A DNA stretch of 64,000 nt from Collimonas antrihumi (lineage in GTDB: Bacteria > Pseudomonadota > Gammaproteobacteria > Burkholderiales > Burkholderiaceae_D): contig NZ_JAGQED010000016.1 in the NCBI RefSeq assembly GCF_018304965.1, forward strand, positions 1 to 64,000. Reading direction: 5' to 3'. Made by a program: the position numbers and the translations under genes. Positions 43,042 to 61,493 of the stretch are shown here, one piece after another. The first letter of the stretch is position 1. Each line of letters starts with the position of its first letter. The notes beneath the pieces are model-generated. The model was not told the origin of the DNA and did not search any database. It saw nothing but the letters and a program-made list of their open reading frames with translations.

Positions 43042-44430
43042 TCAAGCCTTGTCAGCCTTACCCGCAGCGTTGGCCAGCTTGCTCAACATCTGGTCCAGCA
43101 ACCATGGCTTGCGGTCCTGGTCTTCTGCCAGTTCCTTGCGCCGGATAGCGTCGCGCACTACCAGCGAACCGATGTAACGCAACGGCTCCGGCGGGAACTG
43201 ACCGCGCGGGCCGGCTGCCAGCGGGCTGCGGCTCCACGCATTATCAACACCCAGCACCAGCGACGACAATAATTGCCCGCCCATGTAGCTGGGGCCGACG
43301 CCGTTGCCGGAATAACCAAAGCCATAAAACACATTCGGCATGTCATTCAACCGTCCGAAGAACGGGAAGCCGGTTACCGAGCGATCTGACGGGCCGTTCC
43401 AGCTGGCGGTGATCGGCACGCCGGCCAGTGCCGGGAAGAAATCATGCAAGCTGCGTTTGAGCAGCTGCTCATAAGGCGAGCGCTGATCGAATACCGGCAG
43501 GATGCGGCCACGCCAGGCGAAGGTGTTGCCGCCTTTGCCCAGCATCAGGCGGCCGTCTTCGGTAGTACGGTAATAAAACACGAATGTGCGCGAATCCAAT
43601 ACCGATACGCCGTCCGTCAGACCGATGCTCTGTAATAGCTCAGGACATTTTTCAGTAATCACCATATCGCTGGAGACCACTGCCAGGGTGCGTTCGAATT
43701 GCGGGAAGCGGCTGGCCATCCAGGCGTTGATGGCCAATACCATCTTGCCGACCTGCAGGCTGCCGGCCGGCGTTTGCAGCGTGACCGTGGCGCCAGGCGT
43801 GAACGACAGCATCGGCGTTCTTTCGTAAATCCGTATCCCCATTTCCAACGCAACCCGGCGCAAGCCACGCACCAGTTTGCCAGGATGCACCGTCGCAGCC
43901 ATCGGCGAGAACACGCCGGCAAGATTGCGTGTCGAACCGGAACGACGCTGTACTTCGGCGTCTGGCAGCGAATGGTAGGAACTGATGCCTTGCCGCTGCA
44001 ACTCTTCCAGCACCGGGTCCAGCACGCCCAGTTGCGCCTTGGTGGTGGAGGTATACAAAGTGCCGTCCTGACGGAATTCAGCGTCGATCTTGTGTTCACG
44101 GCAAAAATTGCCGATGTGATCGACTACCGCTTCCGAGGCTTTGACCAGGCGCACGGCCTCGGCTTCGCCGAACAAACGGCGCAGAGTAAAAAATTTTGTG
44201 GCCCAGGTCAGCAGGCAGCCTCCGTTGCGGCCACTGGCGCCGGCGCCGCACAGATCGCTTTCGATGATGGCAATGTCCAGCGCCGGGTTTTGCTGCTTGA
44301 GCTGGATCGCAGTCCACAAACCGGTAAAGCCGCCGCCGACAATGCCGACGTCCGCCTTTTGTTGACCTTGCAGCGCCGGGGCCAACTCACCGTCGGCGAA
44401 TAGTGCATCTTCCAACCAGAATGGGCGCAT
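43042..44430 (-). CDS. FAD-dependent oxidoreductase of the aminophosphonate cluster
   Basis: 462 residues. FAD-binding VGIVGGGFTGLWTAIQLKQQ at about 28-47, then ESDLCGAGASGRNGG, and a DAO-family end (VFYGFGYSGNGVGPSYMGGQLLSSLVLG). It belongs to the putative aminophosphonate oxidoreductases found beside phn genes. Related enzymes are reported to act on AEP or N-methylated AEP, which would bring such compounds into the PhnW route. It is last of four leftward genes, 49 bases after the HD-domain gene. Confidence 0.88.
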   Translation of the reverse strand: MRPFWLEDALFADGELAPALQGQQKADVGIVGGGFTGLWTAIQLKQQNPALDIAIIESDLCGAGASGRNGGCLLTWATKFFTLRRLFGEAEAVRLVKASEAVVDHIGNFCREHKIDAEFRQDGTLYTSTTKAQLGVLDPVLEELQRQGISSYHSLPDAEVQRRSGSTRNLAGVFSPMAATVHPGKLVRGLRRVALEMGIRIYERTPMLSFTPGATVTLQTPAGSLQVGKMVLAINAWMASRFPQFERTLAVVSSDMVITEKCPELLQSIGLTDGVSVLDSRTFVFYYRTTEDGRLMLGKGGNTFAWRGRILPVFDQRSPYEQLLKRSLHDFFPALAGVPITASWNGPSDRSVTGFPFFGRLNDMPNVFYGFGYSGNGVGPSYMGGQLLSSLVLGVDNAWSRSPLAAGPRGQFPPEPLRYIGSLVVRDAIRRKELAEDQDRKPWLLDQMLSKLANAAGKADKA

Positions 44431-44462
44431 GGGTTTTCGATCCTAGGTGAGTAATGATTGGA

Positions 44463-44495
44463 CGGTAACTAAGCGGTAACTAAGCAGTGACTAAA
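44463..44495. repeat. Three 11-base tandem repeats at the HD-gene stop codon
   Basis: CGGTAACTAAG, CGGTAACTAAG and CAGTGACTAAA in succession. The stop codon of the HD-domain gene (44480-44482, complement) lies in the middle unit; each unit contains the same CTA. Confidence 0.8.
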
Positions 44496-45031
44496 GCACA
44501 GGTAGACATCAATTTTGAGAAATGCCGCAAATCGGGAGTCGCCATTCCTTCCACCTTGGCCTGGTCGTCCCACAACCTCAGGCTGACTGCATCCGCGGCA
44601 TAAGGCCGGGCGATGAATTTCGCGGCATCGATGGCGGAAAAAACGCCGCCCTGCAATTCCAGGCTACGCTTCGAATCCTCGGACAGACGCCCCCAATAAG
44701 CGCTGTCCGTGGCGCACAGATAACGCTTGGCGTCGACGTGCAAACGAATCGGCTCGAGTACCGCAGGGCTGAACAAACCACGCAGATACGGTATCGCGAA
44801 ATATTGATGGGTATCGTCGACGCCACGCGCGGATGGCGTCTCGCCTTGCGGATTCAGCAGGTGTCCGAGATCGTGCAGCAACGCAGCGCAGACCAGCTCC
44901 GGCTCAGCGCCGGCCTGCTCTGCCAGGGTGGCCGATTGCAGCGCGTGCTGCAACTGGTTGACCGGCTCACCGCTATATATCTCGTGGCCGCCACGGTCGA
45001 ACAGTTCGCAAATTTGCGGGATAGTCAGCAT
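44480..45031 (-). CDS. HD-domain protein of phosphonate operons (PhnZ-like)
   Basis: 183 residues. The HD motif is LLHDLGHLL (H53-D54 region), with H29 in LQHALQSA upstream and H98/D161-type residues later (RLHVDAKRYLC, LRLWDDQAKV). The Y-x-x-E element (EIYSGEP) near residue 19-22 is like that which binds substrate in PhnZ, a mixed-valence di-iron oxygenase that cleaves hydroxylated AEP. PhnZ's partner, a 2-oxoglutarate-dependent AEP hydroxylase, is not present here. The family is often named only as phosphonate-operon HD protein. Confidence 0.85.
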   Translation of the reverse strand: MLTIPQICELFDRGGHEIYSGEPVNQLQHALQSATLAEQAGAEPELVCAALLHDLGHLLNPQGETPSARGVDDTHQYFAIPYLRGLFSPAVLEPIRLHVDAKRYLCATDSAYWGRLSEDSKRSLELQGGVFSAIDAAKFIARPYAADAVSLRLWDDQAKVEGMATPDLRHFSKLMSTCALVTA

Positions 45032-45080
45032 CGCATCCTCGAATCCGGTTTTCAGAGTACTGGAAATCTATTGCGCGTAC

Positions 45081-46316
<1,236 letters not shown>

Positions 46317-46350
46317 TCACTTTCGCTGCGAGTCGATGAGTTACGGCCAG

Positions 46351-47064
46351 TTAGCTGGCTGCTGGTACAGCGCTGTCAATGCCGACGGCTTGCGCTTGTG
46401 CCTTATGCATGCGGTTACGGCCGGCGACTGCGTGTTCGCGCATGATGTCGCCTGCAGCTTGCGAGTCGCCGCTGGCGATGGCGTCGACGATCTTGTGATG
46501 CTCAGTGGTTGAAGTCGGCAGGCTGCCCTTTTGCGCCAGCGCCGAGCGGCGGAACAAATTGAGTTCGTTGACCAGGCGCCGATAGGTATGCAACAGCTTC
46601 TTGTTGACGGTGAACTGCACCAGCGAATCATGAAAGCTCAGATTCAACTTCAGGTAACCATCGACGTCGCCCAGCGCCACCATGCCATCCATGCGATCAA
46701 GCAGCGTGCGCAACTCCTGCACCTGGCCCGGCTTGATGGTCGCTGCCAGCTTGCGGCCGATCAACTCATCCAATGCGGCCCGCACTTCATAGATTTCATC
46801 GGCTTCTTCGACCGAGATCTGGCGCACGAAGACGCCGCAGTTCTTTTCCTGCTGGACCAGCCCCGCCTCTTCCAGCGCCCGGAACGCCTCGCGCACCGGA
46901 CCACGTGAAACCCCCAGCATTTCCGCCAGCGAGACTTCATTGAGCTTGTCGCCGGCAACCAGATCGCCCGCCAGGATCATGCGCTCCAGCTCTTTCTGCA
47001 CTAGCGAAGGCAGCGAGTTTTTCTGGACCAGGGCGATGGTGTTCATGGTGCGGTTAGTGGTCAT
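46351..47064 (-). CDS. phnR: GntR-family regulator of the phosphonate cluster
   Basis: 237 residues from the ATG at 47064 (MTTNRTMNTIALVQKN). A FadR/FCD-type regulator: winged helix at about 20-85 (LERMILAGDLVAGDKLNEVSLAEMLGVSRGPVREAFRALEEAGLV) and an all-helical FCD effector domain after it. It is divergent from phnS and has a palindrome between them, so it probably controls both arms, with AEP or a product as the likely ligand. The first 23 codons of the longer frame are probably not translated. Confidence 0.9.
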   Translation of the reverse strand: MTTNRTMNTIALVQKNSLPSLVQKELERMILAGDLVAGDKLNEVSLAEMLGVSRGPVREAFRALEEAGLVQQEKNCGVFVRQISVEEADEIYEVRAALDELIGRKLAATIKPGQVQELRTLLDRMDGMVALGDVDGYLKLNLSFHDSLVQFTVNKKLLHTYRRLVNELNLFRRSALAQKGSLPTSTTEHHKIVDAIASGDSQAAGDIMREHAVAGRNRMHKAQAQAVGIDSAVPAAS

Positions 47065-47128
47065 GGCGGATCTTTTTTCGAGTTGGTGATTGCACTTTAA
47101 TTTAACAGCGTGTAGATTGTCAACAAAA

Positions 47129-47146
47129 TACATGAAACATCATGTA
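47129..47146. promoter_or_regulatory. Candidate PhnR operator
   Basis: TACATG/CATGTA, perfect 6-base arms with a 6-base spacer, in the divergent phnR-phnS region. A second short dyad, TTGTCAACAA (47118-47127), is adjacent. The shape suits a FadR/GntR dimer. Inferred. Confidence 0.45.
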
Positions 47147-47281
47147 ATAAAAAACAACCTGAAAAAAAACAAAAACCAAGAAAAACAAGGCGCAAAAAAG
47201 CAGTCCCCGCAACAGAATGACCAGGTTTCAATATTGGCAGCATCACGGTAGACGATTTGCTCAACATCTGAGGAGATGGCA

Positions 47282-48346
47282 ATGAAACAGCATTTTGCAC
47301 GAATCCTGCGCGCAAGCGCAGCAGCCGGAGTTGTAACAGTCCTGCTAGGCGCCGGCCTTGCCCTGACGGCAGCCAGCAGCCATGCCCAGTCTAAAACCTC
47401 GCTGCTGGTATATACCGCGCTGGAAACCGACGCCATGAAGCAATACAAGGACGGTTTCGAAAAGGCCAATCCGAATGTCGAAATCCGCTGGGTGCGCGAC
47501 TCGACTGGCGTCGTCACTGCCAAATTGCTGGCCGAAAAGAACAATCCGCAAGCCGATGTAGTGGTCGGCCTGGCCGCCACCAGCCTGGCGCTGCTGGGCC
47601 AGGAAGGCATGCTGCTGCCGTATGAACCAAGCGGCATGAAACAGCTCAATCCGGCCTACGTAGATAGCGCCCGGCCGCCAAACTGGGTCGGCATGGACGT
47701 ATGGGGCGCGACCATTTGCTTCAATACGGTCGAAGCCAAGAAACTGAACCTGCCCAAACCAACCAGCTGGCAAGATTTGACCAAGCCGATCTACAAAGGC
47801 CAGATCGTCATGCCGCATCCGGCTTCCAGCGGCACCGGTTACCTGGATGTCACCGCCTGGCTGCAAATGTTCGGCGAAGCCAACGGCTGGAAGTACATGG
47901 ATGCGCTGCATCAGAACATCGCCCAATATACTCACTCAGGCTCCAAACCCTGCACCATGGCCGGCACCGGCGAATTTCCTATCGGCATTTCATTTGAGTT
48001 CCGCGGCCATCAGGTAAAACGCAGCGGTGCTCCGATCGATTTGATTTTCCCGAAAGAAGGCCTAGGCTGGGATGTAGAAGCCAGCGGCATCATGAAGGGC
48101 ACCAAAAACCTGGACGCAGCGAAGAAACTGGTCGACTGGATGAGCAGCAAGGACGCCAACCAGGTCAGCGCCAACTGGTGGGCCATTGTCGCCTATCCTG
48201 GCATTGCCAAAAAAGTCGAAGGCATCCCGGATAATTACGAAAAACTGCTGATCGCGCCGAACGATTTCAACTGGTCGGCCAAGAATCGCGAGCGTATCCT
48301 GGCTGAATGGGGCACGCGTTACAACTCCAAGGCGGAAAAGAAGTAA
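47282..48346 (+). CDS. phnS: 2-aminoethylphosphonate ABC transporter binding protein
   Basis: 354 residues from the ATG at 47282; the ATG at 47276 touches the GAGGAG ribosome site. A signal peptide (VVTVLLGAGLALTAASSHAQ), then an extracellular solute-binding fold of the iron/thiamine type (LLVYTALETDAMKQYKDGFEKANPNVEIRWVRDSTGVVTAKLLAEK). Ends with ILAEWGTRYNSKAEKK. It captures AEP in the periplasm. First gene of the rightward phnSTUW run. Confidence 0.93.
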   Translation: MKQHFARILRASAAAGVVTVLLGAGLALTAASSHAQSKTSLLVYTALETDAMKQYKDGFEKANPNVEIRWVRDSTGVVTAKLLAEKNNPQADVVVGLAATSLALLGQEGMLLPYEPSGMKQLNPAYVDSARPPNWVGMDVWGATICFNTVEAKKLNLPKPTSWQDLTKPIYKGQIVMPHPASSGTGYLDVTAWLQMFGEANGWKYMDALHQNIAQYTHSGSKPCTMAGTGEFPIGISFEFRGHQVKRSGAPIDLIFPKEGLGWDVEASGIMKGTKNLDAAKKLVDWMSSKDANQVSANWWAIVAYPGIAKKVEGIPDNYEKLLIAPNDFNWSAKNRERILAEWGTRYNSKAEKK

Positions 48347-48383
48347 CGCCTCGCCATTCGTGACTACCCAGGAGCGCAGCATC

Positions 48384-49523
48384 ATGTCTCAGCAAAATCC
48401 TTGTCTGGCGTCCAAACCGTATTTGGCGCTGGAAAACATCTCGAAATCGTTCGGCAGCTTTCATGCGTTGCGCGATATCAACCTGACTGTTGCGGAAGGC
48501 GAGTTCGTCTGTTTCCTGGGGCCGTCCGGTTGTGGCAAAACCACCTTGCTGCGCATCATTGCCGGCCTCGAAAGCCAAGACCAGGGACGCATCGTCCAGG
48601 GCGGCAAAGACATATCCTGGCTAGCACCTATCAAGCGCGACTACGGCATCGTGTTCCAATCCTATGCGCTATTTCCCAACCTGACCATCGCCGACAACGT
48701 CGCCTACGGCCTGGTCAACCGGCGCCAAAGCCGCAGCGCCACCGCGGAACGGGTGCAGGAATTGCTGACGCTAGCGGGCTTGCCCACCAGCGGCAAGAAA
48801 TTCCCCGGGCAATTGTCTGGTGGCCAGCAACAGCGGATTGCGCTGGTGCGGGCGTTGGCGACCTCTCCAGGTTTGCTGTTGCTGGACGAGCCGCTATCGG
48901 CACTGGACGCGCTGGAGCGAGTCCGGCTGCGCAGTGAAATCCGCCAGCTGCAGCAACGCCTGGGCGTTACCACCATCATGGTGACCCACGATCAGGAAGA
49001 AGCCTTGACCATGGCCGACCGCATCGTGGTCATGAATCACGGTGCCATCGAACAATGCGGCAGCCCGCAGGACATCTACCTGCAACCGGGCTCACCCTTC
49101 GTTGCTTCTTTCGTCGGCAAGGTGAATATCCTGCGTGGCATTTCGCTTGGCGATGGCCATTTCCGCATCGGCAAGCTGGATTTCAACTGCGAATCGCGCG
49201 TCGATCACATTCCAGCGGGCCAGCCGGTCAAAGTGTATTTGCGGCCGGAAGATTTTGTCGCCCGCAGCGTCGAACAGCGTACCCACAATCACGCCATGGC
49301 GGAAGTGAAGAAAATAGAGTTCCTGGGTGCATTCAGCTATCTGACGGTGGTGCTGGACGGCATGGAACAGCAACCGGTGGTGGCGTCGATGTCGCTCAAT
49401 CTGCTGAAGGAACTGGATCTGGTCATCGGTAGCAAACTGCGGTATGGGCTGCTGCCGGAGCGCATCCGCGTATACCCGGATCACCAGCCAACGCAAACGC
49501 TAGCTCAAACGGCGGCAGCATGA
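48384..49523 (+). CDS. phnT: 2-aminoethylphosphonate ABC transporter ATPase
   Basis: 379 residues from the ATG at 48384 (GGAG nine bases upstream); an ATG at 48360 has none. Walker A LGPSGCGKTTLLRII, signature LSGGQQQRIALVRAL, Walker B LLLLDEPLSALDALERVRL, and a TOBE end (VYLRPEDFVARS). It powers import through PhnUV. Overlaps the permease gene by 4 bases. Confidence 0.94.
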   Translation: MSQQNPCLASKPYLALENISKSFGSFHALRDINLTVAEGEFVCFLGPSGCGKTTLLRIIAGLESQDQGRIVQGGKDISWLAPIKRDYGIVFQSYALFPNLTIADNVAYGLVNRRQSRSATAERVQELLTLAGLPTSGKKFPGQLSGGQQQRIALVRALATSPGLLLLDEPLSALDALERVRLRSEIRQLQQRLGVTTIMVTHDQEEALTMADRIVVMNHGAIEQCGSPQDIYLQPGSPFVASFVGKVNILRGISLGDGHFRIGKLDFNCESRVDHIPAGQPVKVYLRPEDFVARSVEQRTHNHAMAEVKKIEFLGAFSYLTVVLDGMEQQPVVASMSLNLLKELDLVIGSKLRYGLLPERIRVYPDHQPTQTLAQTAAA

Positions 49524-51253
49524 ACAGGCCGGCCAGCGCGCTCAAACTGACACCGCTTACTGCCAGCGGTGGCAAAACCGTTGGCGGCCGCCAGCAAAGC
49601 CACTGGCATGAACGGATTGCACATGGTCTGCTATTACTGGTATGCGCGGGATTGGCGATATTCCTGCTGATGCCGGTGCTGATGATCCTGATCCAAAGCG
49701 TGCAAGACAAGGACGGTGCTTTTGTCGGGCTGCGCCAGTTCAGCGATTACATGTCGACTCCGGCATTGCGGCAATCGGTATTGAATACATTGTTCATTGC
49801 GATATCGGTGACGCTGCTGGTGATCCCGGCAGCCTTCACTTTCGCCTATGCGCTGACGCGCAGCATGATGCCGTTCAAACGTCTTTTCCGCACCTTGTCG
49901 CTGATCCCGATCCTGGCGCCGTCGCTGCTGGCCGCCATTTCGTTTGTGCAGTGGTTCGGCACCCAGGGTGCGCTCAAGGGGTTACTGGGCGGCGCTTCGA
50001 TCTACGGCCCGATCGGTATCATCATCAGCGAGTGCTACGCCGTGTTTCCGCATGCCTTGATGATCTTGATTACCGCGCTCTCGCTGGCTGACGGCCGCTT
50101 GTATGAAGTGGCGGAATCGCTCGGCACCAGCCGCCTGCGCAAGTTCTGGACCATCACCCTGCCGGGGGCCAAGTACGGCCTGATTAGTGCAATGCTGGTG
50201 GTATTCACTTTCACCGTCAACGATTTCGGCGTACCGAAAGTCATCGGCGGCGATTTCAATGTATTGGCCATCGATGTGTATCAACTGGTCATCGGCCAGC
50301 AGAATTTCAACAAAGGCGCGGTAGTCAGCTTGCTGCTGCTATTGCCGGCGCTGATGGCGTTTGCTATCGACTTCACCATCCGGCGCAAGCTGCAGTCCCA
50401 GCTGTCGGCGCGCGCCGTACCGTTTGTGGCCAAGCGCCACCGTCTGTTCGATGCCTTGATGTTTGGCTACTGCGGTCTGGTCTGCTTCCTGTTGCTGTCG
50501 GTATTGGGCATGGCGGTGTACACCTCTTTCATCAAGCTGTGGCCCTACAACCTGACGTTGGTGTGGGACCACTATTATTTCGGCCTGATCCAGGATGGCA
50601 TCCTGGAATCGTATTTCAATAGCTTGCGGCTGGCTGGCTATGTGGTTGTCAGCGGCATAGTGTTGATTTTCGGCAGCGCCTACCTGGTCGAAAAGACGCG
50701 CGGCATGAATGCGGCGCGGCCGGTGTTCCGCCTGTTGGCCATGCTGCCTATGGGTGTGCCGGGGCTGGTGCTGGGACTGGGTTACATCATGTTCTTCAAT
50801 CATCCCGACAATCCTTTGAACTTCCTGTATCGCAGCATGGCGATCCTGGTGTTGTCGACGGTGGTGCATTACTTTACGTCCAGCTACCTGACTGCTGTCA
50901 CTGCCTTGAAGGCGATCGACAACGAGTTTGAAGCGGTATCGGCGTCGCTCAAGGTACCTTTCTATAAAACTTTTCTACGGGTGACGGTACCGGTTTGCCT
51001 GCCGGCGATCCTGGATATCGGCCGCTACCTGTTCATCAATGCCATGACCACTATTTCGGCAGTGGTGTTTCTGTACTCTCCCGACACCACGCTGGCGTCG
51101 GTGGCGCTGCTGAATCTGGAAGCCGAGGGCAAGATCGGCCCGGCGGCGGCGATGGGAACGCTGATCGTGCTGACTTCCGCCATCGTCTGCCTGTTGTACG
51201 CATTGACCACACGCGTGCTGCTAAGGAAAGCGCAAAGCTGGCGCCAGGTCTGA
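49520..51253 (+). CDS. phnUV: 2-aminoethylphosphonate ABC permease, two domains in one chain
   Basis: 577 residues with about twelve membrane helices in two homologous halves. Each half has an EAA loop: YEVAESLGTSRLRKFWTITLPGAKYGL (about 195-220) and FEAVSASLKVPFYKTFLRVTVPVCLPAI (about 470-500). The fused permease stands for both PhnU and PhnV. The gene name is combined for that reason. It lies between phnT (4-base overlap) and phnW (64 bases). Confidence 0.9.
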   Translation: MNRPASALKLTPLTASGGKTVGGRQQSHWHERIAHGLLLLVCAGLAIFLLMPVLMILIQSVQDKDGAFVGLRQFSDYMSTPALRQSVLNTLFIAISVTLLVIPAAFTFAYALTRSMMPFKRLFRTLSLIPILAPSLLAAISFVQWFGTQGALKGLLGGASIYGPIGIIISECYAVFPHALMILITALSLADGRLYEVAESLGTSRLRKFWTITLPGAKYGLISAMLVVFTFTVNDFGVPKVIGGDFNVLAIDVYQLVIGQQNFNKGAVVSLLLLLPALMAFAIDFTIRRKLQSQLSARAVPFVAKRHRLFDALMFGYCGLVCFLLLSVLGMAVYTSFIKLWPYNLTLVWDHYYFGLIQDGILESYFNSLRLAGYVVVSGIVLIFGSAYLVEKTRGMNAARPVFRLLAMLPMGVPGLVLGLGYIMFFNHPDNPLNFLYRSMAILVLSTVVHYFTSSYLTAVTALKAIDNEFEAVSASLKVPFYKTFLRVTVPVCLPAILDIGRYLFINAMTTISAVVFLYSPDTTLASVALLNLEAEGKIGPAAAMGTLIVLTSAIVCLLYALTTRVLLRKAQSWRQV

Positions 51254-51317
51254 TCACGCGACCTCTTACATCTGTTCAATATTTGACTAACACTCGCACC
51301 AAACCAAAGGAAATATC

Positions 51318-52448
51318 ATGAGCCTGCAAAGCCGCGACCCGATTCTTCTGACCCCAGGACCATTGACCACATCGCTCGCCACCAAGAGCGCGATGCTGCA
51401 GGATTGGGGTTCATGGGATGCTTCATTCAACGCCATCACCGGCAAGGTGCGCCAGCAATTGCTGGACATCGCCAACGCGCATGAAACGCACGTGTGCGTG
51501 CCGATGCAGGGCAGCGGCACGTTTTCTATCGAAGCCGCGATCAATACGCTGCTGCCGCGCAACGGCCACATGCTGGTGCTGATCAACGGCGCCTACGGCA
51601 AGCGCATGGCAAAAATCGTCGAGATGATGGGGCGCCAGGTGACGGTATTCGAAACCGCCGAGGACGTGCCGACCACCGCCGCCGATGTCGAGCGCGTGCT
51701 GGGTAACGACCGCAGCATCACGCATGTCGGCGTGATTCACTGCGAAACCAGCACCGGCATCCTGAATCCCTTGCAGGAAATCGCCGAGGTGGTGGCGCAG
51801 CACAAGAAGAGCCTGATCATTGATGCCATGAGTTCCTTTGGCGCGCTGGAAATCGACGCGGCGAAAATCAGTTTCGATGCGTTGATCGCGGCTAGCGGCA
51901 AGTGCATCGAAGGTCCGCCAGGCATGGGTTTCGTGATTGCGCGCAAGAGCGTATTGGAAAAATGCGCCGGCAATTCCCGGTCGCTATCACTGGATCTGTA
52001 CGATCAATGGGTCTACATGGAAAAAACGACGCAATGGCGCTTCACGCCGCCGACGCATATCGTGGTTGCATTTCATCAGGCATTGAATCAGTTTTTTGCT
52101 GAAGGCGGCCGGCCGGCAAGGCTGGCGCGCTATACCAAGAACTACGACACCTTGATGGCAGGCATGCGCGAGTTGGGATTGATCCAGTTTTTACCGGCAA
52201 AAATCCAGGCGCCGATCATCGTCACCATGCATGCGCCGAATAGCGCTAATTACGATTTCAAGAATTTTTATAACCGGGTGCGCGATAAAGGCTTCATTCT
52301 CTATCCGGGCAAGCTGACCCAGGCTGAGACTTTTCGCGTGGGTTGTATCGGCGCGATTGGCGCGGATGAAATGCGGCAGGCAGTGCATGCGATCGGCGAT
52401 GCACTGAGCGAGATGGGAATTAAAACGAGGAACGCAAGTAACTCTTAG
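51318..52448 (+). CDS. phnW: 2-aminoethylphosphonate:pyruvate aminotransferase
   Basis: 376 residues. A class V PLP aminotransferase: start [50 protein letters not shown] (PLP-pyridine Asp), and the Schiff-base lysine in [15 protein letters not shown]. It converts AEP and pyruvate into phosphonoacetaldehyde and alanine. A ribosome site (AAAGGAAA) is just upstream. It ends the rightward run. Neither phnX nor phnY, which use its product, is nearby. Confidence 0.96.
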
Positions 52449-52552: not shown

Positions 52553-53845
52553 TTATTTACGCACACCGATGATTAAAGTAGCGGCACTTAGCAATAATAG
52601 CGCTGCCAATAAATATAAGGCCCCGTCCATACTGCCAGTGTGCGTCTTGATTTGCCCGATGACCCATGGGCTGATAATGCCACTGGTAATCCCAATACTG
52701 CTGATTAAGCCAATACCACCGGCAGCAGAAGCACCTGATAAATAGCTGGCAGGAATAGTCCAGAAAATCGGCAAGGCGGCAAAAATCAACACAGAGGTGA
52801 GCGATAACAACGCCAGCATAATGAACAAACTTGGCAGGTGCAAAGTTAGCAACAGCAGTGCAAATGCGCCACCGATGGTGCAAACAGCAAAATGCCGACG
52901 ACGTTCATTTTTGCGATCGGAATGACGCGCAATCAAAATCACACCCACCGCACCAATGGCGTTGGGGATGACGGAATACAAACTCACATGCAAAATGTCC
53001 TGCACACCGAATTCTCGTATCATCAAGGGCAACCAAAAATTGAGTGTGAGTGTGGCGCACGTCAGCGCAAAATAAATAAACGCAAACATATACACGCGAG
53101 GATTGCGTAAAGCATCGCCAAAAGAGTGACTAGCCTGTGATGCCTGTCCTTTTTGTTCCGCTTGCAGGTCGCTTGATAATTGCTGTTTTTCTTCCCTGGA
53201 CAACCATTTGGCATCGTTAGGTTTGTCATCTAAATAGAAATACGCGATCACGGCCAAGATGGGAGCCGGGATACCCTCTAATACAAACATCCATTGCCAA
53301 CCATGGATACCCCATACGCCTTCCATATCGCGAATGATCCAGCCAGATACCATGCCACCCAATACACCAGCGATAGCGACACCGGCAAAGAAAACGGACA
53401 GAATCGCCGCCCGGCGTGATACGGGATACCAGTAAGTAAGGTAAAGCACGATCCCAGGAAAAAATCCAGCTTCAAAAACACCGAGTAAAAAGCGTAAAGT
53501 ATAGAAATGCGCAGGTGTGGAAACGAACATCATGGCAATCGAGACGACACCCCAGAGCAGCATGATGCGTGTAAAGGTTTTGCGCGCACCATATTTTGCC
53601 AACAGCAGATTACTTGGCACTTCGCAGAGCACGTAACCAATATAAAACACTGCAATTCCCAGACCGTACATCGCATCGCTAAAACCAAGATCGGCTTTCA
53701 TTTGCAATTGCGCAAAGCCGATGTTGATACGATCAAGAAAAGAAACCACGTAGCAAATAAAGAGAAACGGGATGATACGCCACGTTACTTTGGAATACAG
53801 ATTGTCGCGTTGCCGAGCGTCGCTGGCAGTCATGGTAGTTAGCAC
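52553..53845 (-). CDS. MFS transporter, anion:cation symporter (ACS) type
   Basis: 430 residues from a GTG at 53845, chosen because AGGAG lies 7 bases before it; the ATG at 53833 is too far. Twelve helices. The first motif is RIIPFLFICYVVSFLDRINIGFAQLQMKADLGFSDAMYGLGIAVFYIGYVLCEVPSNLLLAKYGAR, typical of ACS carriers of aromatic and sugar acids. It is last of the leftward catabolic genes and could take up the pathway substrate. Confidence 0.92.
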   Translation of the reverse strand: MLTTMTASDARQRDNLYSKVTWRIIPFLFICYVVSFLDRINIGFAQLQMKADLGFSDAMYGLGIAVFYIGYVLCEVPSNLLLAKYGARKTFTRIMLLWGVVSIAMMFVSTPAHFYTLRFLLGVFEAGFFPGIVLYLTYWYPVSRRAAILSVFFAGVAIAGVLGGMVSGWIIRDMEGVWGIHGWQWMFVLEGIPAPILAVIAYFYLDDKPNDAKWLSREEKQQLSSDLQAEQKGQASQASHSFGDALRNPRVYMFAFIYFALTCATLTLNFWLPLMIREFGVQDILHVSLYSVIPNAIGAVGVILIARHSDRKNERRRHFAVCTIGGAFALLLLTLHLPSLFIMLALLSLTSVLIFAALPIFWTIPASYLSGASAAGGIGLISSIGITSGIISPWVIGQIKTHTGSMDGALYLLAALLLLSAATLIIGVRK

Positions 53846-54242: not shown

Positions 54243-56006
54243 TTAATGCATTACGTGCTGTTTATCAGCCAATCCCAGTGCCTTTTGCAACGCTGTTTTG
54301 ATTGCTGCCACATTCAATTCGCGCCAGCGTCCGCATACATGTTGATCTGGGCGTACCAGGTAAAAACTACCTGGACGTGCGGCGTAACGTTGTTTGGCTA
54401 AACCTTCGTAATCTTCAATTATGATGAGCTGATCCGACTGCGTTAACAAGGCGTGTGCAGCTTGTCCCACGGCAGCTAGATTTTCTCTGTTGACGATCAC
54501 GATCAATTTGAGTGCTTGGATGCTGGCAGTGTTGAGTCGCAGATTGCTTATTTGTTGCACCAGGTGTTGGGCATCGTCGCAAAAGAATAGGCCGGTAAAT
54601 TTCTGACCGATGGCCGACAACAGCCAGCTGTCTTTTCCCGCGATTTTGATTGGGACATCAGCGCAGACCGCACCGGGCACCATATTGCCTGACCACGTCG
54701 CATCCACATCAGGGCTATTTAAGTGCGATGTTTTTAATACGGCCGGTACAGACAGGCGGCCGCTATTGACCAATTGTCGTGCAAAGGGGTGATGTTGCGC
54801 CAATTTTAAAACTGCGTCGCGAAACAGATGGCTGACATCTGATTTCGGGGTAATGAAATCGGTCGAGCGAGTGGAATTGAGAATGTTTTCATCCGCAGCG
54901 TACTCACGTTCGCTAGCATAGCTATCGAGTAGGCTATCCGGCGCGTTTCCTTGTAATACCAACGCTAATTTCCAGGCCAGGTTCTCTGCATCTTGCACGC
55001 CGCTATTTGCGCCGCGTGCACCAAACGGGGAAACGCCATGTGCCGCATCGCCGATGAACAATACCGCGCCATGGCGAAAACTGTCCATGCGCAGACAGGA
55101 AAAGGTGTACACGCTGACCCATTCCAACGTAAATTCTGCTTCTTTGCCGAGTAACGCCCGTACCCGTGGGATGACGCGTTCTGGTTGCTTTTCCAACTCA
55201 GGATCGGCGTCCCATCCTAATTGAAAATCAATGCGCCAGACATTATCTGGTTGGCTGTGCAGTAAAACCGACTGATTTCGATGAAATGGCGGATCAAACC
55301 AAAACCAGCGTTCCGCCGGAAAATCGGCTTTCATTTTGACGTCAGCAATTAAAAAGCGATCTTTGAATGTGCGGCCTTTGCTGTCCAGGCACATCAACTT
55401 ACGCACCGCACTGCGCGACCCATCGGCCGCGACGATATAGCGGCCATGCAGATCATAGGCGCCATCCGGAGTTTCTATGGTCAACGTGACACCTTGATCA
55501 GTGCCATGTCGGGTCAATCCTGTAACGCGATTTTTCCAGCGAATTTCCAGATTCGGTAATTGCTGGGCACGCTCTAACAACATGCCCTCAACATAATATT
55601 GTTGCAGGTTGATGAAGGCGGGGCGCCGATGCCCGGTTTCCGGCAGAAGATCAAATTGATAAACTTGTTGATCCTGTAAAAATACTCGGCCGACATTCCA
55701 TCGTACGCCTTTTTCTACCATCGGTTCGGCGCAGCCAAGACGATCGAAAATATCCAAAGTCCGTTTGGCAAAGCAAATAGCCCGCGAGCCGTTAGAGAGA
55801 CGATTGTCATCATCCACCACCACCACAGGTATGCCGCGTTGGGCGATGTCAATCGCGGCGCTCAGACCAGATGGCCCCGCGCCGACGATGATGACGGGAT
55901 GTCGTGTTTTCTTATCAGCGGCTTGCTCTTGTTCCGTGCAAGGTTGATAGGCGAAGGTGCGTTGTTGATAGTCCGCGTGGTGTGACTGATCAATGGATTT
56001 GCTCAT
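54243..56006 (-). CDS. FAD-dependent aromatic-ring monooxygenase (MhpA/PheA-type)
   Basis: 587 residues. Nucleotide-binding VIIVGAGPSGLSAAIDIAQRGIPVVVVDDD (about 38-67), and the second FAD motif FIGDAAHGVSPFGARGANSGVQDAENLAWKLALVLQG (about 315-350). A C-terminal thioredoxin-like part is typical of phenol hydroxylase/MhpA enzymes, which add one oxygen to hydroxylated aromatics with NAD(P)H. The substrate is unknown; hydroxyphenylacetate- or hydroxyphenylpropionate-type compounds are possible. GGGGAGAC before the ATG. It precedes DUF2783 and the MFS gene in one operon. Confidence 0.92.
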   Translation of the reverse strand: MSKSIDQSHHADYQQRTFAYQPCTEQEQAADKKTRHPVIIVGAGPSGLSAAIDIAQRGIPVVVVDDDNRLSNGSRAICFAKRTLDIFDRLGCAEPMVEKGVRWNVGRVFLQDQQVYQFDLLPETGHRRPAFINLQQYYVEGMLLERAQQLPNLEIRWKNRVTGLTRHGTDQGVTLTIETPDGAYDLHGRYIVAADGSRSAVRKLMCLDSKGRTFKDRFLIADVKMKADFPAERWFWFDPPFHRNQSVLLHSQPDNVWRIDFQLGWDADPELEKQPERVIPRVRALLGKEAEFTLEWVSVYTFSCLRMDSFRHGAVLFIGDAAHGVSPFGARGANSGVQDAENLAWKLALVLQGNAPDSLLDSYASEREYAADENILNSTRSTDFITPKSDVSHLFRDAVLKLAQHHPFARQLVNSGRLSVPAVLKTSHLNSPDVDATWSGNMVPGAVCADVPIKIAGKDSWLLSAIGQKFTGLFFCDDAQHLVQQISNLRLNTASIQALKLIVIVNRENLAAVGQAAHALLTQSDQLIIIEDYEGLAKQRYAARPGSFYLVRPDQHVCGRWRELNVAAIKTALQKALGLADKQHVMH

Positions 56007-56291: not shown

Positions 56292-57260
56292 TTAGTTCTG
56301 TAAAGCGGCCCACATTTCTTTATCGCGCTCAGCCGTCCAGATGCGTGGGTGTTTAATACCGCTGGCTTCGTCATAGGCGCGCGATACATCAAATGGCAAA
56401 CAATGTTCGTAAATGAAGACCTGGCCAAATTTTGGATCCATCGCTTTACGGGTATGTGCCATGGCTTCTTTTAAGCCGAATTTTTGCGCGACCGCTTCTT
56501 TTCCTTGTTGTAGCAAGGTGGTGACGAAGTCACGAGTGTAATTCAGACCTTCTTCCACTTGCTGTGGCGTGACTAAAGCAGGGCCGCGACCTGGCACTAA
56601 TTTCTCTGCCTTGAGTGCACGCAATGCTTCCAATGTCAGCGGCCATTCCGTCAATTGCGCGTCACCGCAATAGCAAGCAGCATCGTATTCGACCAGATCA
56701 CCGGAGAAGAGGATTTTTTGCGAAGGAATCCAGGCAACCGTATCGCCTTTGGTATGGCCTGCGCCCAGATGCATGATATTGACTTCCAGCTTGCCCAAAA
56801 ACAGGGTGATTTCTTTGTCAAAAACCAGTGTTGGCCACGTTAATCCTGGTACGGATTCAACGCCGGCAAACAAGCGGGGGAAGCGCTCGATTTCCGATTT
56901 CATGTCAGCTTCGCCACGCTCGACAATCATCTCGTAAGTACCGCGGCTGGCGATGACTTGTTCTGCGCCTTCTTTGGCATAGGCCGATGCGCCCAATACA
57001 CGCACGGCGTGATAGTGAGACAGCACGACATATTTGATCGGCTTGTCGGTGATCTTACGAATTTCTTTAATTAAATCGTCAGCCATCAAAGGGGTGGCTG
57101 TGGTGTCAATAATCATCACAGCATCGTCGCCAATAATGACACCAGAATTGGGATCACCTTCGGCCGTGTAGGCATAGGCGTTATCGCTCAGCTTTGTGAA
57201 GCTGATTTTTTTCACTTCCAAGTCCGCTTGCGAAGCAAATGCTTTCGTGTTGTTGGTCAT
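56292..57260 (-). CDS. Metallo-beta-lactamase-fold protein with partly lost metal site
   Basis: 322 residues. The MBL core has HYHAVR at 82-87 where active enzymes have HxHxDH, so D and H of the second metal site are Val86 and Arg87. H82, H84, H169 (GAGHTKGD) and D188 (FSGDLVEYD) remain, but the last histidine position reads PGRG (Arg225). A single metal ion could still be bound. Proteins of this variant occur beside aromatic catabolic genes. It is first of the leftward island genes; GGGGA precedes the ATG. Confidence 0.88.
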   Translation of the reverse strand: MTNNTKAFASQADLEVKKISFTKLSDNAYAYTAEGDPNSGVIIGDDAVMIIDTTATPLMADDLIKEIRKITDKPIKYVVLSHYHAVRVLGASAYAKEGAEQVIASRGTYEMIVERGEADMKSEIERFPRLFAGVESVPGLTWPTLVFDKEITLFLGKLEVNIMHLGAGHTKGDTVAWIPSQKILFSGDLVEYDAACYCGDAQLTEWPLTLEALRALKAEKLVPGRGPALVTPQQVEEGLNYTRDFVTTLLQQGKEAVAQKFGLKEAMAHTRKAMDPKFGQVFIYEHCLPFDVSRAYDEASGIKHPRIWTAERDKEMWAALQN

Positions 57261-57563
57261 GTTGGTCCCCGTTCAGTTGTTGTAGTTAAGCAATGACATT
57301 GATTGCTGCTGCGATTGTGTCGAGTAGATTCTAGGAGCATCACTTTGCATTTGTCAATAACAAATGCATTTGCCTATATATAACCATCAAAGGGTAAGTA
57401 AGATTGCTCTTAATACCAGTCAATGTTGACAGTTTAAAAAGACCAGATCTCCAAACATGATGAATGATGAGCATCTCGCGCGAGATACTTTCTCATCCGA
57501 GTTCGCCCATAACGCGATATTTCATCAATGTCACATTACTGTGACGACAACTAGGAGTTCAGC
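57261..57563. other. Divergent promoter region between the MBL gene and the amino-acid oxidase
   Basis: 303 bases, A/T-rich, no gene. It must carry the two outward promoters and contains the dyad at 57346-57368. Confidence 0.6.
57346..57368. promoter_or_regulatory. Candidate operator of the island's IclR-type regulator
   Basis: Perfect 9-base arms TGCATTTGT/ACAAATGCA with a 5-base spacer, midway in the divergent region between the MBL gene and the oxidase gene. It suits a dimeric HTH regulator such as the nearby IclR-type protein. Binding is inferred. Confidence 0.45.
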
Positions 57564-59735
57564 ATGGCTTGGTTTCCTTCTTTAGATGCACTTGGTGGCA
57601 CCAGTGGTAAGCGCCCACGTGCAGCAGGACCACTTACACTTGCTCAGTTAAAAGCCGGTACGTCACGTTTGATTGAAAGTTTCCCCTATGATTACGGTCG
57701 GATTTTGGCGGCCTCTGATACGACGAATGGCTGGCTCAGGGAGCCGTTTAGCAACGATGAAAAAACCAATAAAGTCATCATCGTCGGCTGTGGCATGTCT
57801 GGCTTGATGGCTGCGCGGGAGCTGCTACGCGCCGGACTTTCGGTGGATATGTATGACCGTAACAAGCTGAAAGAACAAACTGGAGATTGGATGCACTATC
57901 GTCACGGCCGTGCGAACACCGACATCCGCGATTTTGGTCTCAAGGGACAATCAGTTTGCGAATTAGGTGGAATGCGTTTTCCGGTCAAAGCCAAGGCGAC
58001 TTGGCATATGTTTGCCGAGGCTTTCAGGGATGATCAGGTCTTTATGCCTTTCCCTAACCCTGGCATCGTTCCTACCATCGTGTGCGAGGATGGGCAAACT
58101 TATCTGTGGCATGCGGGGAGTGCATCACACCCCGATTTGCCGCCGCAATTTGGCAGGATTGCCGGTCATGTTGCTGAAGCTATGAATACGCTGAGTGATG
58201 GACAGACCACGTCCATAGAGGTGCAAGGATTGTTGGTTTTACCCGATTTGAATCCCGCTCAGGAAAAGCGACTCTACGATTATTGGGGCTTCATGGTCAG
58301 CAATTTTGACAACATGACCTTTGGTGCATGGATACATGAATATGTTGCCAAACCAAATAATTGGTCGCCAGACGATTTAGCGCGTTTCTTCAATTTGGGT
58401 TTTGGCACAGGTGGCATGGGGAGTTTATTCCCAGTCAGTTTTCTTGAGATGCTACGCATCTGGATTTGGGATTATGCCGATGAATATGCGTTACCCGCCG
58501 GTTATGGCTTGGGCAGTGTCGCCAACATTATTATGGAAAAATTGAATTCGGAATTTGGTGCTGCCGGAAAAGGTACGCTACGTATTTTTGAAGAACATGA
58601 AGTACAAGAAATCGGCATGTTTTCAGCAGCAGATGAGACCCTGGCCAAATCTGGTGTATTAGTACGCGATCTCAACATTACGGCAGCCCCAAATCTACAG
58701 CCGCAATATGCCGATTTTTTGATTGTCGCAGTACCGCATACTGCAGCCATTGCCTTGATGTCTTTAACCGCAGATCATAGTTATCCACGCAATACCACGC
58801 GAGTTATTCAAAACATAGAAGGCAAACCGTGTCAGTTCTATAGTTACTTCGACAAACCAAGCACATCGCCTGCTTTTAATACTTTTATCCGTCCACAAAA
58901 AAATGGTATTGCACGGTTGAATATGGTCAATGCCAGTAAATCGTTTTGTACATTTGAGACAGCACCATGGAACGTGACGACACCAGAAATAGCATGGCAT
59001 CGGATTGAAGGTTTGCCGGTGCAATGCGTATTAAGTGAGGGTTGGTCCCGTGCCAGTTATTTCTTGCCAGCGAACCCGGAAGATATTAATTCGCCGTGCG
59101 CCGCTTTACTTTCATATACCTGGAATCTCGATTCCAATAAAGTACAAGCCGTATCAGGCGCGGCGAAGGCGCGTGAAAATCCCGGTACCGATGGGCATGC
59201 AGAGCCTGCCCCATGGCTCGCAAACTCAAACCAATGGTGGCGTGCTTATCGTACTGCTGCATCAGTACTGCCATATGCTTTTATCAATAGGGACGGTGGT
59301 AACGTTACCCGCTTTTTTATCGATAGCGGCAGTACGACCAATAACGATGTCACAGGCATGGATTGGCAAGATAATCCAAGTACTGCCGGGGGATTCAAAC
59401 TCGATGCCGCGGGTGATTTTCAAATGGTGAACACGTGGGCGTATGCCTATTTATTAACGGAAGAAAACGGCTTTGCCAGCGAATCAACACGCTGGAAAAC
59501 TTATCAACGCATCCATTTTGCATCAGATAGCGCCAGTAATTATGGTGGTTGGTGCGAGGGGGCTTTTATGGCAGGCGCTAATGCCGCTATCGGGGTGCTG
59601 GCTACCATCAACAGGATCAAGTTAAAAGATGAACCAGCCGAAATTTTGGAAGGTAATCCTTTCGCTGACATTAACCAGCTTATCCCTTTAAAGCAATATC
59701 CTATAGTTAGAGAAAGTGGGAAAAAGGTTGCTTAA
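57564..59735 (+). CDS. Flavin amino-acid oxidase of the tryptophan/phenylalanine 2-monooxygenase type
   Basis: 723 residues. FAD-binding VIIVGCGMSGLMAARELLRAG (71-91), the family motif ELGGMRFP (133-140) whose Arg binds the substrate carboxylate, and the late motif GGWCEGAFMAGANAAIGVL near the C-terminus. Length and motifs fit enzymes converting aromatic L-amino acids into arylacetamides or 2-oxo acids (IaaM, Pseudomonas L-phenylalanine oxidase). No signal peptide. AGGAG lies 7 bases before the ATG. Transcribed alone, with a terminator after it; divergent from the MBL gene and shares its regulator region. Which amino acid it uses is not known. Confidence 0.85.
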   Translation: MAWFPSLDALGGTSGKRPRAAGPLTLAQLKAGTSRLIESFPYDYGRILAASDTTNGWLREPFSNDEKTNKVIIVGCGMSGLMAARELLRAGLSVDMYDRNKLKEQTGDWMHYRHGRANTDIRDFGLKGQSVCELGGMRFPVKAKATWHMFAEAFRDDQVFMPFPNPGIVPTIVCEDGQTYLWHAGSASHPDLPPQFGRIAGHVAEAMNTLSDGQTTSIEVQGLLVLPDLNPAQEKRLYDYWGFMVSNFDNMTFGAWIHEYVAKPNNWSPDDLARFFNLGFGTGGMGSLFPVSFLEMLRIWIWDYADEYALPAGYGLGSVANIIMEKLNSEFGAAGKGTLRIFEEHEVQEIGMFSAADETLAKSGVLVRDLNITAAPNLQPQYADFLIVAVPHTAAIALMSLTADHSYPRNTTRVIQNIEGKPCQFYSYFDKPSTSPAFNTFIRPQKNGIARLNMVNASKSFCTFETAPWNVTTPEIAWHRIEGLPVQCVLSEGWSRASYFLPANPEDINSPCAALLSYTWNLDSNKVQAVSGAAKARENPGTDGHAEPAPWLANSNQWWRAYRTAASVLPYAFINRDGGNVTRFFIDSGSTTNNDVTGMDWQDNPSTAGGFKLDAAGDFQMVNTWAYAYLLTEENGFASESTRWKTYQRIHFASDSASNYGGWCEGAFMAGANAAIGVLATINRIKLKDEPAEILEGNPFADINQLIPLKQYPIVRESGKKVA

Positions 59736-59763: not shown

Positions 59764-59794
59764 CGGAGGTCGAGTTAACTTGACCTCCGTCTTT
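59764..59794 (+). terminator. Terminator of the amino-acid oxidase gene
   Basis: Stem CGGAGGTC/GACCTCCG, with further pairing AGTTAACT inside and a short U-tract GTCTTT. It separates the oxidase from the regulator gene, which may have its own promoter. Confidence 0.7.
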
Positions 59795-59837: not shown

Positions 59838-61493
59838 TTGCCTAAGCTCCCCTCATCGCCTCTCGTTCCATCCGTAGCCAAGCCCCAGCGCGGGGTGCAA
59901 AGCGTTGAGGTGTCGGGAAAAATATTGCAAACCTTGAGCCGTGCGCGCCAACCCTGCCATCTTGCGGAATTAGCCAATGCGGTCCAAATGACTAGCGCAC
60001 AGGTGTTTACCTATATGGTGACGTTGTGTAAGTTGGCATTGGTGAAACGCACGCAATTTGGTGCTTATGAGCCTGGGCCGTTAGCACTACGTTTGGGGTT
60101 GCGGCATTTGCAGCAACAATTGCCTTATCGTGTAGCACTCTCGCATGTACAGGCATTGGCTGCAGAAATTGGACACAGCGTCGCCGTTTGCATCATGGGT
60201 CCACAAGGCCCGACCATCGTGCGTTATGAAAACAGCGGTTTGCCTTTGCACGTTAACTTGCATGTGGGGACAGTTATGTCCTTATCGCAGACATCTACAG
60301 GGCGCGTGTTTTCTGCTTATCTACCGGCACAAATCGTGCGGCAATTGATGCAGCAACAAGCCGTATCTGCCCAGAATATATGGCAGCAGTTTTATCAATC
60401 ACCTGCACCACATGCAGATGCATTACAGCACGATGCGGATGCGATTAGAGCGCGTGGCATGGCGCGCGGGATTAATTATCCCAGCCCCGGCATTAGCAGT
60501 TTATGTATTCCCGTTTTTGATGCTGAACGGCAGCTCTGTTTAGCGCTGACGGTGGTCGGTTCATCCAAAACAATGGACACGCATTGGCATGGCAGCATCG
60601 CCAAAGCCTTACGCACAACAGCAAAGGCGATTGAGGAGGCATTGTCTCAACCACTTATACAAGCCCCGCAAGTTGAAGAGCTGAAAGCCATTGCAGCAAC
60701 TGAAAATACAAAAATCAATACTGATAAACAGCAGCGCGGGATTCAATCGTTAGAAATTACAGGACAACTACTGCAGGTGATCAGCTCCGCGATGATGCCG
60801 TTATCTTTGCGTACGCTGTCAGCGAATGCACAGATGAGTTCGGCAAAAGCATTCCCGCATTTGGTTAGTTTATGCAAAATCGGATTATTAGAGCGACATG
60901 CGCAATCGGGAGATTTTAGTCCGGGTGCTTTGAGTCTGGAACTCGGACTGAATGCCCTGCAAAGATTGGCGCCTGTCAGGGAAGCCGAACAAGAAACCAA
61001 TCAACTGGTAGAGAGCACAGGATTGACTGTCGCATTGGCGATCATTGGACCGATGGGCCCAACGATCATTCATCTGGAAGATGCACCAAAACCAATGCAT
61101 ATCAGCATACGCATCGGTACGGTGATGTCGATGATGCATACGACTATCGGCCGTGTATTTAGCGCCTACTTGCCAGCACCTGTATTGGAAAGATTATTAC
61201 ATCAAAATACTTTGCGTTTTGCAGACGAGACAAGCTCGACGGTGATTTCAAAAAAAATGGCGGATACTTTGCGCAAAATACGTATCAGCGGGATTGATAG
61301 CGCGATCGACAAGCCCGTTCCTGGAATACACGCTTTGGCCGCGCCGGTGTTCGATTACACAGGTAACATCAGCCTTGTGTTAGCGGTAATGGGACCGGCC
61401 GATAGTTTTGATGTTTCTCATGATGGGGCGATAGCGCAAACCTTGAAAGAGTCGACCACTGCATTGTCGTATCGCCTGGGATACATGGCATAA
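59838..61493 (+). CDS. IclR-type transcriptional regulator with two complete IclR units in one chain
   Basis: 551 residues, twice the usual 250-280. The first unit begins RGVQSVEVSGKILQTLSRA (R18) and the second RGIQSLEITGQLLQVISSA (R300), 282 residues later. Each has a winged helix (AELANAVQMTSAQVFTYMV... and RTLSANAQMSSAKAFPHLV...) and an IclR ligand domain with a matching GP.GPTI, VGTVMS or IGTVMS and TGRVFSAYLP. No stop or frameshift separates them. The start is uncertain: a TTG at 59838 with no good ribosome site; no suitable ATG in frame. One chain may act as a pseudo-dimer. It probably controls the island. Confidence 0.88.
   Translation: MPKLPSSPLVPSVAKPQRGVQSVEVSGKILQTLSRARQPCHLAELANAVQMTSAQVFTYMVTLCKLALVKRTQFGAYEPGPLALRLGLRHLQQQLPYRVALSHVQALAAEIGHSVAVCIMGPQGPTIVRYENSGLPLHVNLHVGTVMSLSQTSTGRVFSAYLPAQIVRQLMQQQAVSAQNIWQQFYQSPAPHADALQHDADAIRARGMARGINYPSPGISSLCIPVFDAERQLCLALTVVGSSKTMDTHWHGSIAKALRTTAKAIEEALSQPLIQAPQVEELKAIAATENTKINTDKQQRGIQSLEITGQLLQVISSAMMPLSLRTLSANAQMSSAKAFPHLVSLCKIGLLERHAQSGDFSPGALSLELGLNALQRLAPVREAEQETNQLVESTGLTVALAIIGPMGPTIIHLEDAPKPMHISIRIGTVMSMMHTTIGRVFSAYLPAPVLERLLHQNTLRFADETSSTVISKKMADTLRKIRISGIDSAIDKPVPGIHALAAPVFDYTGNISLVLAVMGPADSFDVSHDGAIAQTLKESTTALSYRLGYMA

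Follow-up and report, generated by a model that had tools for sequence, protein, structure and literature searches.

The window, by which we mean the whole 64,000-nucleotide stretch of DNA that was analysed, contains a regulator gene whose 551 codons form a single open frame without internal stops (Table 1). Its product has the domain composition of the IclR family: both HTH_IclR (PF09339; 43.5 bits, cut-off 22) and IclR_C (PF01614; 125.8 bits, cut-off 24) exceed their Pfam cut-offs, each on two stretches of the protein, and a six-frame search of the organism's own genome places IclR_C at 60132-60632 and 60954-61469, both within one 562-codon open frame. The N-terminal and C-terminal halves (hereafter N and C) are 39% identical over 256 columns (E 2e-59). 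The AlphaFold2 model, based on a 25-row alignment (A3; mean pLDDT 82.2, pTM 0.74), consists of two units, each with a winged-helix and a ligand domain, and pLDDT falls below 50 in the linker at residues 276-298. A3 was preferred to another alignment, A2, in which the N rows had been misplaced onto the C half (32-39% identical). An earlier note on this DNA had proposed two complete IclR units in one unbroken frame, and the proposal is borne out by the open frame, by the profile search, which gave the expected two matches for each domain rather than a single unit, and by the predicted structure. The note had also described the protein as a fused pseudo-dimer, which holds in so far as one chain contains two full units, and each of them has a recognition helix and a ligand domain of its own. 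Since these recognition helices are each conserved, a built-in hetero-dimer is the natural reading of the sequence and the model.

Table 1. Genes and features of the regulator locus (positions in the window)
Feature	Position	Strand	Remarks
MFS transporter	52553..53845	-	D-galactonate transporter and 4-hydroxyphenylacetate permease HpaX are the best matches, both below cut-off
FAD-dependent aromatic-hydroxylase-like oxidoreductase	54243..56006	-	PRK08132 family, 872.6 bits (cut-off 416)
Metallo-beta-lactamase-fold hydrolase	56292..57260	-	Divergent partner gene, 80-86% identical in pair-bearing relatives
Predicted sigma-70 promoter of the metallo-hydrolase gene, TTGACA-18-TAGAAT	57328..57357	-	11 of 12 matches; -35 in the outer left half-site
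Predicted operator, 34 bp	57350..57383	+	15-bp boxes at 57350-57364 and 57369-57383, centres 19 bp apart
Flavin amine oxidase	57564..59735	+	Nearest solved relative L-phenylalanine oxidase 2yr4
Fused double-IclR regulator	59838..61493	+	551 aa, TTG start
N unit (residues 15-271), HTH_IclR + IclR_C	59880..60650	+	Orthologue is the upstream gene of the relatives' pair
N recognition helix (model helix 53-65)	59994..60032	+	Residue 58 is Thr in the window; covaries with the inner half-sites
Linker (residues 272-296)	60651..60725	+	One in-frame TTG nearby, at residue 269
gCTGAaa in the linker	60680..60686	+	Compare ATGAAAGCC in L038
C unit (residues 297-551), HTH_IclR + IclR_C	60726..61490	+	Orthologue is the downstream gene of the relatives' pair
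C recognition helix (model helix 335-348)	60840..60881	+	KAFPHL motif usual in C units; from the model and pair conservation

Within the same family, 12 of 294 genomes match the regulator at E 1e-60, the organism's own included, and each of the other 11 has adjacent N-like and C-like matches, in different frames in all 11. The start of C overlaps the stop of N as ATGA in nine of these relatives and as TGATG in L042, whereas the same-genus relative G061 (locus L032) has two genes without such an overlap. A scan of 15 genomes of the genus (E 1e-50) detected the regulator genes only in the window and in G061. Among 72 distinct separate pairs, the 4-bp gene overlap is present in 48 and absent in 24. 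An earlier contig scan with the window protein as query found no relative; the 80 named loci were found by a scan with hydrolase alignment A1 and are the best 80 of at least 435 relatives, so that, being the best-scoring ones, they are no random sample. They comprise 57 separate pairs, eight fused genes (seven from Burkholderia and one from Trinickia) and 15 loci in which no pair was detected, some of which are truncated at contig ends. Orthologues with the same double layout, which the earlier note had suggested looking for, were found in Burkholderia, Trinickia and a single genome (G1343) of g159, the genus code of Paraburkholderia metrosideri. In the family of G570, where 197 of 349 genomes match, a hand count gives at least 47 uninterrupted full-length fusions: at least 42 in g168 (the Burkholderia loci), four in g400 (Trinickia) and the one in g159. 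The listing for this family holds 54 full-length rows, seven of them with an internal stop. L223 (g168) is fused as well.

These distributions bear on whether the window gene is an assembly or sequencing artefact, with two genes truly present as in the relatives. The fusion in the window is known from one draft assembly of 83 contigs, and G061, the only other genome among the 15 of the genus to carry the genes, has two, both of which speak for such an error. However, full-length fusions without interruption are present in three-contig genomes, e.g. G1343 and G570, and the linker of the window protein offers no in-frame ATG or GTG for a separate C; we consider an artefact very improbable. Indeed, no in-frame ATG or GTG occurs anywhere between residue 259 and the C unit, so that a separate C protein would have no ordinary start. 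The gCTGAaa motif in the linker is a possible remnant of an ancestral ATGA start/stop overlap, in which case the CTG codon at 60681 may mark where C once started (ATGA to CTGA). In the fused Burkholderia-clade sequences, the likely ancestral start of C is kept as an in-frame ATG or GTG in 22 of 25 (e.g. L089 and L068). A second, shorter product of these genes is conceivable; the 24 bases at that ATG or GTG contain no obvious ribosome site.

The duplication is old, whereas fusion came later and more than once. In a tree of 60 units, N (100/100), C (100/98) and the single IclRs (97/93) each lie on one side of a branch and, therefore, the duplication predates these species. For the history of the fusion, 125 loci yielded 110 pairs and, after removal of identical N stretches, 98 rows, some of which are still identical over the first 150 residues of N. 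A subset of 62 rows served for a careful tree, bootstraps and topology tests. The fused label needs four changes on the tree of the 98 concatenated pairs, and across 200 bootstrap trees of the 62 rows one origin was recovered in none, the 5-95% range of changes being 4-4. A single shared fusion, which would unite the ten fused rows, was rejected (AU p 7.6e-112), as was one fusion shared by the window and the Burkholderia clade (AU p 1.2e-5). A fusion shared by the window and Trinickia (AU p 0.129) or by Trinickia and Burkholderia (AU p 0.093) was not rejected. Because one origin is rejected and these two pairwise groupings are not, we claim at least three independent fusions, and perhaps four. 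In the 62-row tree, the window row falls in a group (96/92) with L114 (Undibacterium), L148 (Janthinobacterium), L164 and G061, its exact place being uncertain owing to a long branch and odd composition, and all five have Phe at N57. The earlier note had argued from the clear divergence of the two units that the fusion is not a recent assembly error, but this argument fails: divergence dates the duplication and not the fusion, and it is no sign of an old fusion when the pair is still two genes in the 11 family relatives and the label changes four times. Both halves have been kept after fusion, as is seen from the low median dN/dS among ten fused Burkholderia-clade sequences (45 pairs), namely, 0.16 for N and 0.20 for C, with 0.49 for the linker.

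The divergently transcribed genes next to the regulator encode a hydrolase, a hydroxylase and a transporter, and all three have matches in each of the 11 family relatives. The hydrolase closely resembles 8d2z, whose name identifies it as a superfamily protein only. Taken together, the predicted functions make an aromatic acid the likely substrate of the cluster and suggest an aromatic compound as the type of ligand of the regulator. By contrast, the flavin amine oxidase, which in the window stands between the predicted operator and the regulator gene, is matched at the locus in none of the 11 family relatives and, above 150 bits, at none of the best 80 named loci. The regulator may now control this gene as well. 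An inverted repeat, CGGAGGTC...GACCTCCG, noticed by eye at 59764-59789 between the oxidase and regulator genes, has no T run and is possibly a terminator or attenuator. Further along the window, positions 43042-52448 hold a 2-aminoethylphosphonate cluster whose parts (PhnS2, PhnT2, PhnU2, PhnW, PhnA, an HD-domain oxygenase, an aminophosphonate oxidoreductase and a regulator) each exceed their own NCBIfam cut-off. The neighbourhood differs in other genera. Five Ralstonia loci (L137, L139, L144, L145 and L146) have the same hydrolase and hydroxylase beside a single, distantly similar IclR, and the 34-bp element described below was not seen there by eye; a swap of the regulator at these loci is possible. 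At the fused Burkholderia loci L150, L163, L177, L178, L181, L186 and L187, nothing in the stretch matches the hydroxylase above 150 bits, and five of them (L150, L177, L178, L186 and L187) have two transporter matches in its place.

A 34-bp element lies between the regulator and hydrolase genes in all 78 usable loci, i.e. those that are long enough and have the divergent hydrolase (69 distinct operator strings). It consists of two 15-bp boxes of the type TTNG-N7-CNAA, each roughly palindromic with unlike half-sites, and has twofold symmetry overall; two such boxes, with 19 bp between their centres, give four half-sites in the order outer-inner-inner-outer. De novo, the commonest spaced word pair occurred in 53 of 77 loci versus 7 in each of three shuffles. 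With a model trained on the same 78 loci, the lowest site score was 25.2 and the best of one shuffle per locus was -8.8. Forty further loci, relatives of the first set, comprised 12 copies (L200, for example, is a copy of L167) and 28 new ones, three of which share an operator string with the first 78; the element is present in 27 of the 28, and at the further locus L227 no site was found within 700 bases. In the window, the rightmost, outer right half-site is weak (ATAA), and the 24-bp core occurs nowhere else in the genome when up to 3 mismatches are allowed. The suggestion of the earlier note that a pseudo-dimer could serve an asymmetric operator finds no counterpart here, the predicted operator being symmetric as a whole, although the half-sites within each box differ.

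The predicted operator coincides with predicted promoter elements on both sides. The predicted -35 of the enzyme operon, lying in the outer left half-site, reads TTGACA in 55 of the 78 loci and TTGACT in 18, and a -10 with at least four of six matches at 16-18 nt is found on the enzyme side in 70 loci, compared with about 7 expected at random places. A regulator-side promoter spanning the operator is present in 48 of 78 (about 6 expected at random places). A promoter scan confined to the window itself gave no excess, with 4 in the region versus 4.4 in shuffles. Since the operator overlaps both the predicted regulator promoter and the enzyme -35, the N/C complex most likely represses its own synthesis.

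The N and C recognition helices are each conserved and unlike one another. In 97 pairs, N55 is always Gln and N59 always Tyr, and C337 Lys, C339 Phe and C341 His are likewise invariant (100% each). Mutual information, compared across pairs of operator columns, peaks at the symmetric columns 14 and 23, which are complementary in 69 of 78 loci and in 25 of 27 further loci, with A-T, G-C, T-A and C-G all represented. Among 323 variable columns of the protein, N58 ranks first for both of these inner columns (nMI 0.73 and 0.59; runner-up columns 0.50 and 0.38). The rule Thr58-A/Ala or Pro58-G is followed by 76 of the 78 first-set loci, and among the further loci an inner A accompanies Thr58 in 19 of 20 cases and Ala or Pro58 in none of 7. 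The contrasts between N58 and the operator on the starred branches include only two independent ones (on average 1.9 agree and 0 oppose, p 0.5), so that shared ancestry could, statistically, account for the link. Covariation thus supports placement of N on the inner half-sites, and C would, by elimination, occupy the outer ones. No residue of the C recognition helix, which hardly varies, tracks the outer bases in the 78 loci.

This last result could also mean that C, as a ligand sensor or structural partner, has given up reading DNA, with N alone on the operator and the outer conservation mostly that of the -35. Such a role would fit the proline at position 340 of the C recognition helix in 92% of the 97 pairs, the lack of any C helix residue following operator bases and the identity of the outer left half-site with the enzyme -35. 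However, proline is also usual at this position in the single relatives (85% of 20), the three C helix residues named above do not vary at all, and the outer right half-site, which does not serve the enzyme genes as a -35 box, has AA in all 78 loci. We regard a non-reading C as unlikely.

The arrangement might instead reflect two independent homo-oligomers encoded on one transcript, N2 and C2 each on its own palindrome, with fusions being neutral read-through. Fusion of overlapping genes can be neutral, and each box is, after all, roughly palindromic; moreover, PMC8222616 describes IclR proteins as binding as dimers or tetramers. Against this, the boxes mirror each other around one centre at a fixed 19-bp spacing, and a single residue of N covaries with half-sites of both boxes, so that neither box looks owned by one regulator. 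Furthermore, fusion has recurred, and genomes of the Burkholderia-type genus with uninterrupted full-length matches number at least 42 by hand count. Independent homo-oligomers consequently appear rather unlikely to us.

Our preferred interpretation, which we consider probable, is that the window protein represents an IclR pair in fused form and that the members of this pair, N and C, act as one complex on the predicted four-half-site operator. More broadly, and with somewhat less assurance, we lean towards an obligate heteromeric IclR family (N2C2), with N inside and C outside, whose genes were repeatedly fused and in which N58 sets the inner base (Thr: A; Ala or Pro: another). According to this scheme, an old duplication gave rise to two regulators with different recognition helices, for which most relatives have neighbouring genes that often overlap. 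Two N and two C would bind the four half-sites between the regulator and the divergent hydrolase-hydroxylase-transporter genes and, with N inside and C outside, each 15-bp box would be held by one N:C pair; in the fused form, one chain would hold one box and two chains the whole operator. When bound, the complex would obstruct the regulator promoter and contact the enzyme promoter at its -35, such that it could repress itself and switch the enzyme operon in response to a ligand of presumably aromatic type. Fusion, which would lock the N:C pairing and a 1:1 dose, appears to have arisen several times, and the occurrence of the same join in several lineages itself suggests that N and C act as one complex. 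IclR regulators are, as a rule, described as homodimers or homotetramers. If our interpretation is correct, the pair would represent a hetero-oligomeric IclR that occurs in nature, and it would suggest an origin of PobR and other one-chain double IclRs from pairs that were already cooperating. The pair could then serve as a test case for how duplicated transcription factors become one unit rather than two, and N58 as a single recognition-helix position with natural variants for probing DNA specificity.

The one-chain double IclR layout is not new, PobR (PDB 5w1e, a complex with PHB) having been solved earlier. PobR likewise has two complete IclR units in one chain and, among the chains listed, only 5w1e aligns along both units of the model, so that this architecture was already known; it is distant from the window protein, with 17-18% identity and a phmmer E of 2.3e-7. 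PobR of Streptomyces coelicolor is reportedly two IclR factors fused into one, and its structure is said to contain ligand in only one of the two ligand domains. We take 5w1e to be the protein of this actinobacterium described by Zhang et al. (2018, Nucleic Acids Res 46:1501). The two fusions would then probably have been independent events. Against the PcaR/PcaU/PobR subfamily model TIGR02431, the window protein scores 121.9 bits, below the curated cut-off of 284.75. HmgR of Pseudomonas aeruginosa (5y6i; KdgR in the sequence table) is a single unit, unlike the window protein. Judged by title and abstract, none of the papers listed by literature searches reports a heteromeric IclR pair or such fusions; the heterodimer in PMC10470539 is a dioxygenase. 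With respect to the operator, tandem palindromes with centres 18-22 nt apart are tied to tetramer binding of IclR regulators in PMC8222616, and the spacing in the tandem or three-box operators described there, e.g. that of PcaU, resembles the 19 bp found here. The single IclR at L073, encoded by one gene beside a related hydrolase and hydroxylase, has in its intergenic region a near-perfect 36-bp palindrome, recognized by eye, with the same geometry; the usual recognition helix of the single group is KAHPYL, in contrast to the pair of helices here. The PcaU-type operators described in that source serve single regulators; the half-sites at the present locus appear to be shared by two paralogues, and such a four-half-site operator looks new.
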